From a bacterium (GTDB lineage: Bacteria > Ratteibacteria > UBA8468 > B48-G9 > DTJG01): 40,067 bases of DNA. Below, piece after piece: positions 1 through 428 of this stretch. The stretch spans positions 1 to 40,067 of the forward strand of contig JAJYYV010000016.1 of NCBI GenBank assembly GCA_021800535.1. Reading direction: 5' to 3'. Below the pieces are notes generated by a model. The model made no database searches and was not told where the DNA came from. It saw only the letters and a list, made by a program, of their open reading frames with translations. The position numbers were made by a program, and so were the translations under genes. Position 1 is the stretch's first letter; each line of letters begins with the position of its first letter.

Positions 1-178
1 TTACTTCGCTCAAGTTCAACTCTTCAAAAGAAGATTTGCGAGGAGGGGGAGTTGAGCGCCCCTCGCTCCCACTACGCTCGGGGTCGGCCACTCGCTAAAA
101 TTGCTACGCCCGCTCGCAATTTCTTACTTCGCTCAAGTTCAACTCTTCAAAAGAAGATTTGCGAGGAGGGGGAGTTGA
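1..178. repeat. 123-bp-period direct repeat carrying the tRNA-Leu 3' end
   Basis: Positions 1-55 are repeated without mismatch at 124-178, a period of 123 bp. The repeated block includes the last ~18 nt of the tRNA-Leu gene (acceptor 3' strand and part of the T arm) plus 37 bp of its downstream flank. The 68 bp between copies (56-123) is markedly GC-richer than the rest of the window and contains a 7-bp inverted repeat (AAATTGC/GCAATTT) around an 11-nt loop. The array touches the window edge, so more copies may lie outside. It could be a tRNA-tail tandem duplication or a relic of integration at the tRNA 3' end. No protein-coding signal is seen. Confidence 0.8.
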
Positions 179-240
179 ACCCCCATGCCAAAGGCACTGG
201 ATCCTAAGTCCAGCGCGTCTGCCAGTTCCGCCATCCTCGC
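160..240 (-). tRNA. tRNA-Leu (anticodon UAG)
   Basis: The minus strand folds as a class II tRNA. The acceptor stem is GCGAGGA/TCCTCGC. The anticodon stem CTGGA/TCCAG closes a CTTAGGA loop with anticodon TAG. There is a short variable arm, and the T stem GGGGG/CCCCC closes a TTCAACT loop. The base after the acceptor stem is A, the discriminator expected of tRNA-Leu. CCA is not encoded and would be added after transcription. The tRNA reads CUN leucine codons. Parts of both ends are duplicated nearby (3' end at 38-55, 5' end at 390-402). Confidence 0.95.
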
Positions 241-423
241 TTATATCAAAAACCTATATTTTTACTAACGCACTATATTATTACACTTTTTTATGTCAAT
301 CCAGTTATGCGCAGATTAATCACCCCCTGAGCATATACTCCTCATCTTTGGAAAGCAAAATAACTGTACGGAAAAAACAATCGTCGTGGCCGCCATCCTC
401 GCTTATATCAAAAACCTATATTT
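241..423. other. tRNA upstream region with no gene seen
   Basis: This stretch between the tRNA-Leu gene and the next gene has no convincing coding frame. An open frame crosses it on the plus strand, but it runs through the tRNA and has no gene-like composition. Its two ends are the copies of the 39-bp repeat described separately. The middle (267-389) is unique sequence in which I see nothing specific. Confidence 0.5.
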
Positions 424-428
424 TTACT
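390..428. repeat. 39-bp direct repeat of the tRNA-Leu 5' end and upstream flank
   Basis: Positions 390-428 repeat 228-266 exactly over 39 bp. On the minus strand this block is 26 bp of upstream flank followed by the first 13 nt of tRNA-Leu. The distal copy therefore carries the start of a second tRNA that is never completed. It also overlaps the stop codon of the neighbouring SLOG-family gene (424-426). Upstream regulatory sequence of the tRNA may have been duplicated with it. Confidence 0.85.

Follow-up and report, generated by a model that had tools for sequence, protein, structure and literature searches.

Structured, protein-less units at the tRNA 3′ ends of Ratteibacteria-like bacteria: a candidate gene-sparing mobile element

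In a Ratteibacteria-like genome and its relatives, many different tRNA genes are followed, on the tRNA strand, by a unit of ~105-130 bp whose ends correspond to the particular tRNA beside which it lies. Read in the sense of the tRNA, the type A unit runs from the 3′ tail of the tRNA through a short flank (F, ~10-25 nt), an inverted copy of the T-arm and a 79-nt core to a second copy of the tail, after which there is often a further F, a further inverted arm and the start of another core. The units are short, present in multiple copies and without an open reading frame, in the manner of MITEs, and their turnover between related genomes points to mobility. We give an even chance to the reading that they represent a lineage-specific, non-autonomous, gene-sparing, structured and protein-less mobile element residing at tRNA 3′ ends. 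Named metagenome-assembled genomes (MAGs) containing the core pattern are labelled Candidatus Omnitrophota, Candidatus Ratteibacteria, TA06, 'Vermiphilus' or simply bacterium, and for this reason the host group is only called Ratteibacteria-like here, without any claim to the name.

The unit at one end of the window (the whole stretch of DNA analysed, 40,067 nucleotides, which is the entire contig C83 of genome G000) is set out in Table 1. Sequence comparison shows that positions 1-55 and 124-178 match exactly with a period of 123 bp, in agreement with the tandem repeat of a tRNA-Leu 3′ end described in an earlier, sequence-only reading. That reading divided the repeat into 18 nt of tRNA and 37 bp of flank; the total of 55 nt stands, and the measured division is 19 nt of tRNA-Leu end plus 36 nt of flank. 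At 97% identity the repeat extends to 61 nt. The spacer was rightly noted to be GC-rich (62% in its core, vs 31.9% in the whole window), and it also contains the inverted T-arm copy, which the sequence-only reading did not report. Model R1 matches the window core at 56-134, and a flank motif resembling CTTCTTTGAA is seen again at several other tRNAs. The folding energy of the window unit as a single strand is not unusual (z -1.27).

Table 1. Features at the tRNA-Leu locus of the window
Feature	Positions	Strand	Basis
tRNA-Leu (anticodon tag), host gene	160..240	-	ARAGORN; Rfam RF00005, 57.1 bits
First tail copy: tRNA-Leu 3′ tail from T55	160-178	-	sequence
Short flank F (AATCTTCTTTTGAA), tRNA 3′ end to inverted arm	146..159	-	sequence
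Inverted arm GAGTTGAAC	137..145	-	reverse complement of T-arm positions 53-61 (GTTCAACTC) of the same tRNA
Type A structured core: two hairpins that covary, with a tandem GA internal loop in the second	56..136	-	
Second tail copy TCAACTCCCCCTCCTCGCA, from T-loop position 55	37..55	-	exact repeat of 160-178
Second F and inverted arm, then the opening 13 nt of another core, cut off by the contig end	1..36	-	
39-nt direct repeat: the initial 13 nt of the intact tRNA-Leu preceded by 26 nt of upstream flank	228..266	-	
Second copy of the 39-nt upstream/5′-tRNA repeat	390..428	-	228-266 = 390-428
Segment between the 39-nt repeats	267..389	-	sequence

As had been noted, the array reaches the edge of the window: base 1 is the contig end, and a core runs off it. 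Positions 1-127 are identical, in reverse complement, to positions 1-127 of another contig end in the same genome (C25), which starts with an overlapping copy and beyond the shared 127 bases runs into different sequence. A k-mer length of 127 is used by common assemblers. The exact 127-base overlap suggests a branching node in the assembly graph, and the true array at this locus therefore probably holds more units than the contig displays. The possibility that the repeat is an artefact of the contig end, which the sequence-only reading had allowed for, is rejected because the same architecture lies within contigs of other genomes; it is contig-internal in six of seven sampled genomes, the seventh (G014) being without it, and an assembly artefact is rejected on the same grounds. 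The core also occurs in named MAG records whose contig names suggest different assemblers. Several model matches start fewer than 300 bases from the first base of their contigs (C12, C35 and C58 of G002; C79, C82 and C111 of G006; C111 of G029), as would be expected if the arrays break assemblies.

A search of the window genome, which is 91% complete, with positions 1-178 of the window found 13 places, so that the repeat is not unique to its locus. At 11 of these ARAGORN places a tRNA at the unit: Leu (3), Met (2), Tyr, Gly, Gln, Asp, Thr and Lys. Of the other two, one is the overlap end of the window locus, and the other is a type A unit that follows the 3′ exon of a tRNA gene with a group I intron (RF00028, 100.7 bits, L056 2177-2419). 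There are 16 core-model matches in this genome, of which one repeats the core of the window through the contig overlap. Rfam finds 43 tRNAs in it, and, leaving out that of the window, which has a tail copy of its own, 17 of the 42 are followed within 900 nt by a repeat of their own 3′ tail that agrees in at least 13 of 14 nt. An inverted-arm score of at least 8 is reached at 28 of the 42, and 11 of these 28 have no tail copy.

Tail copies also follow 11 of 19 tRNAs in G001, 13 of 30 in G002, 8 of 26 in G008, 4 of 26 in G010 and 7 of 23 in G029, fractions that are biased upward because the tRNA regions came mostly from the top of Rfam score lists and because extra regions in these five genomes were picked on a core-model match. 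None follows the 27 tRNAs (of 46, picked by tRNA score alone) sampled from G014, a genome of the same order without model matches. Across the phylum, the type A core model matches 20 of 35 genomes, one of them (G030) by a single weak match, and none of 64 genomes outside the phylum, the searches over more than 40 genomes having been run with stricter filters. Of 27 loci that the model retrieved from relatives, 24 have a tRNA on the same strand 25-186 nt upstream, the exceptions being one contig end and two split tRNA-Ser sequences; a 28th locus, the weak match in G030 (L077), begins 28 nt after a tRNA-Tyr. It is this recurrence of the unit beside many different tRNAs of the genome and phylum, usually with the tail of that tRNA, that bears out the suggestion of the sequence-only reading that a tRNA-associated family copies tRNA tails. 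Whether the tRNA gene encodes its CCA end shows no association with filling (CCA in 3 of 88 filled and 5 of 78 empty tRNAs; p = 0.48).

The joints of the unit fall at defined points of the tRNA. Among 69 tail copies at other tRNAs, 41 start at position 56, 11 at position 55, 12 at position 58 and five elsewhere, and the start largely tracks the type of core. All 11 copies that start at 55 sit at Leu, Ser or Cys tRNAs, and in the rows read their arms reach the complement of position 53, most others starting at 56 and ending at 54. The right end of the last tail copy is variable, and in some units the second tail is lost (for example L034 of G000 and L139 and L145 of G001). At a tRNA-Val of G008 (L175) a two-hairpin insert (GTGCTTGTGAAACAAGCAC..) breaks the second tail copy, as if spare tails were themselves targets.

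The inverted arm fits its own tRNA beyond chance. Over 48 loci, which were pre-selected for at least six of ten pairs in the best of six registers, positions 54-62 pair in 92-100%, position 63 in 88%, positions 64-65 in 52-56%, position 66 in 31% and positions further out in 10-46%. A first permutation test favoured the own-arm reading, because its registers had been tuned to the own arm after the six-of-ten filter. When the filter was dropped and the registers were re-tuned for each permutation, 49 loci defined by the core-start motif (including L223 of G010, with four of ten pairs) gave 447 of 490 pairs with the own arm, compared with 372.5 on average and 397 at most in 3000 permutations, none of which reached the observed value; the window locus itself is in neither set. 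The own arm is uniquely the best at 17 of the 49 loci, tied at 20 and beaten by the arm of another tRNA at 12. In nine of ten type B arms of G000 and G001 a G faces position 60, making a G-U pair. Some loci retain an inverted arm only and complement the 5′ side of the T-stem as well (L026 of G000, L147 of G001 and L180 of G008).

The type A core is a conserved, covarying fold. In 86 matches to its model (80 distinct), 93.3% of pairs are standard; 275 cells are changed on both sides, vs 70.8 after shuffling and 17-48 when the partner strand is slid, counts that lean towards the model since the alignment was fitted to it, and both-sided changes occur in 17 of 19 core pairs. By eye, the tandem GA internal loop of the second hairpin lies between helices that covary (CCC-GA-GCC / GGC-GA-GGG); L110 of G002 has the variant GGT-GA-GCC / GGC-GA-ACC. 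At the gathering score, Rfam 15 returned only tRNAs and the group I intron of L056 and nothing for the cores, and at E values up to 10 a type A unit gave two weak matches (E 0.39 and 6.1) and a type B unit none. A known ribozyme or other Rfam family was accordingly rejected as the identity of the cores.

Further core types, B, C and E, are distinguished by eye or by loose patterns. Type B (..GGTTCACCAC[GT]ACG..CTTTCCAAAG..GTGCGTCA..) occupies the same place at the tRNAs for Ala, Cys, Pro, His, Glu, Ser (2) and Leu of G000, and its tail copies, where present, start at 58. Depending on the pattern, it has 10 or 11 hosts in G000 and G001; with the looser one, which gives 11, the loop reads TTCAAAT in 10 of the 11, vs 28 of 61 tRNAs overall. 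Type E is found in G001, at Ala(cgc) and Arg(tcg), as well as beside tRNAs of G010 and G029, and type C is a smaller two-hairpin insert at Val(tac) and Lys(ttt) of G000 and within A cores of G002 and G008. Units occur singly, in tandem (three identical A cores at the tRNA-His of G008) and mixed (B, A and truncated B at the tRNA-Asp of G001). A separate repeat of G001 and G000 (..AGTTTGGATTGTCTTT..AGAGCAATCC..AACTTATTTC..), with the look of an ordinary MITE, lies downstream of tRNAs at L135, L137 and L140, and is also seen at L016.

Cores seem to spread between tRNAs and to have their ends renewed from each target. Their mean similarity is 0.742 between different tRNAs of the same genome (196 pairs), 0.580 between the same tRNA in different genomes (26 pairs) and 0.608 for other pairs (906 pairs). 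Nearly identical cores, such as those at the Lys and Met tRNAs of G008 (0.986), have different arms, each of which pairs 8/8 with its own tRNA. Between the congeners G000 and G001, the tRNAs for Cys and His carry B in the former and A in the latter; tRNA-Asp is followed by A and a truncated B in G000 and by the three-core array in G001; and tRNA-Trp is filled in G000 and arm-only in G001. This within-genome likeness and turnover between congeners are what argue for movement with target-renewed ends. The insertion event itself was never seen, and the orthologous flanks of G000 and G001, and of G002 and G008, are too divergent for an insertion boundary to be read letter by letter.

A different layout is found in four genomes of two families (G002, G009, G010 and G012; L260, L261, L262 and L263), in which a conserved hairpin stretch of 30 nt and an A core separate T-stem position 53 of a tRNA-Ser(CGA)-like sequence from its continuation at C56, the left side being without a tail copy. 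An intact tRNA-Ser(CGA) lies closely downstream of the split copy in G002, G009 and G010, and the contig of G012 stops where the next tRNA-Ser copy starts. The split tRNA-Ser may be a source gene, a degenerate unit without the first tail or a chimeric non-coding RNA; since it has no left tail, the gene-sparing layout is not universal.

For a mobile element of this kind, the mechanism that seems most likely is one in which the core would enter the T-loop through a staggered break, repair would duplicate the tail and so spare the tRNA gene, which stays whole, and the inverted arm would be written by fold-back synthesis on the exposed strand of the T-arm. Recombination between tail copies would then allow arrays to grow, or cores to be removed leaving scars that consist of the inverted arm only. 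Such a break and fold-back synthesis would give an arm with a fixed core-side end and a fading outer end. The spacing between the core-side end and the tail-copy start does tend to be constant, both shifting together by 1 nt between the two A subclasses, and the other end fades between positions 63 and 66; the movement of the arm end in step with the tail start is the strongest hint for the mechanism. Against it stand the lack of a mobilising enzyme among the families searched, the split tRNA-Ser without its first tail, the 12 of 49 arms that are beaten and the G-U pair in most type B arms, which plain copying would not give and which is possible under selection at the RNA level. We suggest tentatively, with the chances somewhat against it, that this is a new kind of mobile element, in which the unrelated cores A, B and E share a route through the T-arm that writes the reverse-complement arm of the target together with a fresh tail, in hosts without Cas1, Y1 or RT. 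Such an element would fit any tRNA and leave its gene working, and the tRNA-Ser(CGA)-core chimera could be its source gene.

It is also conceivable, if rather unlikely, that no transposition is involved: the tRNA 3′ end and its flank would have been duplicated locally in tandem, the cores would be an old, vertically inherited RNA domain with a role in 3′ processing or regulation, and the arm would be kept by selection against pairing of the spare tail with the tRNA body. Several observations are in keeping with this, namely the covariation of the cores, the tolerance of the arm for G-U at position 60 of type B loci, the conservation of the tRNA-Ser(CGA)-core chimera over two families and the minimum-energy folds of some units, which pair the 5′ acceptor strand of the tRNA with the second tail and so make a masking role sensible. 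It is hard to square, however, with cores that are on average more alike between the tRNAs of one genome than at the same tRNA of two, with orthologous tRNAs that, from one congener to the other, are without the core or have B in place of A, and with arm-only loci that complement the 5′ side of the T-stem in the absence of any second tail.

The remaining explanations invoke known enzymes. The T-arm is a dyad with a 7-nt loop, like many attB sites, and the units might be remnants or satellites of tyrosine-recombinase elements that integrated at the T-arm, a common attB of tRNA islands. Most joints indeed fall in the T-arm, and restoration of the tail with a displaced fragment is the rule that the Islander account gives for islands, yet the tails vary by tRNA though the core is common, the inverted arm has no place in attL/attR, the phage, plasmid and viral collections contain no match, and Phage_integrase matches are few (one each in G001 and G002, two in G008 and none in G009, as would be expected for Xer proteins alone; 1-5 across G000-G008); we consider this origin improbable. 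The attL/attR-like integration scar put forward in the sequence-only reading is not supported either, the interval being only ~70-130 bp with a conserved structured core and the tail varying by tRNA, and the integrase-bearing integrative element it also envisaged fares no better, given a single Phage_integrase match in each of two genomes (G001 and G002) with many units. Retrotransposition, by target-primed reverse transcription of a tRNA-core read-through RNA, would leave the 3′ joint fixed in the T-loop and the 5′ joint and target duplication variable. One joint is largely fixed (55/56) and the other variable, the core is a conserved structured strand in tRNA sense, and there are nested and mixed units; but RVT_1 (PF00078) matches only 3 of 35 phylum genomes and none of G000-G010, and even allowing that a divergent or borrowed reverse transcriptase is possible, this route is quite improbable. 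Most improbable of all is insertion of the Cas1/casposase type, in which a palindromic target (T-arm ... inverted T-arm) would be cut with a stagger at each end and duplicated in the manner of a CRISPR repeat. It would account for the repeat-core-repeat-core layout, the palindromic repeats and the mixed cores (L144 of G001), but the right end of the last copy is variable and Cas1 has no match in eight element-bearing genomes (G000, G001, G008, G009, G015, G019, G024 and G029), four of them at least 90% complete.

Among all 35 phylum genomes, Cas1 is matched in 16 and Y1 transposase (PF01797) in 23; Y1 has no match in G000, G001, G002, G004, G005 and G008-G010. A host enzyme identified by co-distribution is rejected, because Cas1, Y1, RVT_1 and Phage_integrase do not track the elements, and phage, plasmid and viral carriers are rejected as well, in view of the empty searches of those collections.

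The repeat family is not described in the literature searched, a body from which most subscription papers were out of reach. REP/RAYT and IS200/IS605 elements are hairpin-rich non-coding repeats, and the tRNA units resemble them in both respects but have a tail duplication and an inverted arm and, in eight genomes, no Y1 match. MITEs are recognised by terminal inverted repeats shared with an autonomous transposon; the ends of the unit are tRNA-specific and form no fixed repeat of this kind, and the search for an autonomous partner covered the Cas1, Y1, RVT_1 and Phage_integrase families. In Islander-type islands a 3′ fragment of the tRNA is duplicated, the tRNA remains whole and the displaced fragment lies on the far side. 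The units likewise duplicate the tail, spare the tRNA and displace the fragment; they differ in being ~105-130 bp long and gene-less, in placing one core at many tRNAs, in the inverted arm and in that no dedicated integrase was found. The YPAL and RU-2 repeats of Yersinia are structured and protein-less elements of <200 bp with targets at or next to dyad symmetry and, for YPAL, target duplications of 3-26 bp (PMC2229807). They share with the tRNA units small size, structure, the absence of a protein, a target duplication of variable length and a dyad target (PMC2229807), whereas the tRNA units target the T-loop/3′ end, duplicate the tRNA tail, form tandem and mixed arrays and carry at one end an inverted copy of the arm of each target. 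Family 2 casposons also target a tRNA gene with a target duplication (PMC6614799); the units, by contrast, contain no casposon genes, their duplications are variable and the window genome has no Cas1 match. The units behave partly like a MITE with a variable target duplication and partly like an island that leaves its tRNA intact, but on the enzymes that define them, islands, casposons, REP/RAYT elements and retroelements all fail to accommodate the units, as far as tested.

Gene-less units of ~120 bp, or traces of them, stand behind 28 of 42 tRNA genes in the window genome, about two thirds, each matched to its tRNA. tRNA genes are classic docking sites of large islands and phages. If the arm is written at insertion, this would be a target-templated formation of ends that fits no family tested; if it is selected instead, it would mean rapid, genome-wide co-evolution of tRNAs and their trailers at the RNA level. 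Dozens of tRNAs, several core types and ~20 genomes make the origin of the arm a testable question. A practical consequence is that assemblies of such MAGs can break at tRNA 3′ ends.

The 5′ side of the window's tRNA-Leu is repeated as well, a feature that the sequence-only reading did not mention. Part of the tRNA 5′ end is copied upstream of the intact gene, and the two 39-nt repeats (Table 1) flank a type-B-like core. In tRNA sense, the segment between them opens with this core (CCACGACGATTGTTTTTTCC..CTTTCCAAAGATGAGGAGTATATGC), which by eye is like the type B core of L144 in G001, and it ends, again by eye, with a promoter-like stretch, TTGACA..TAATAATAT, ahead of the intact tRNA.
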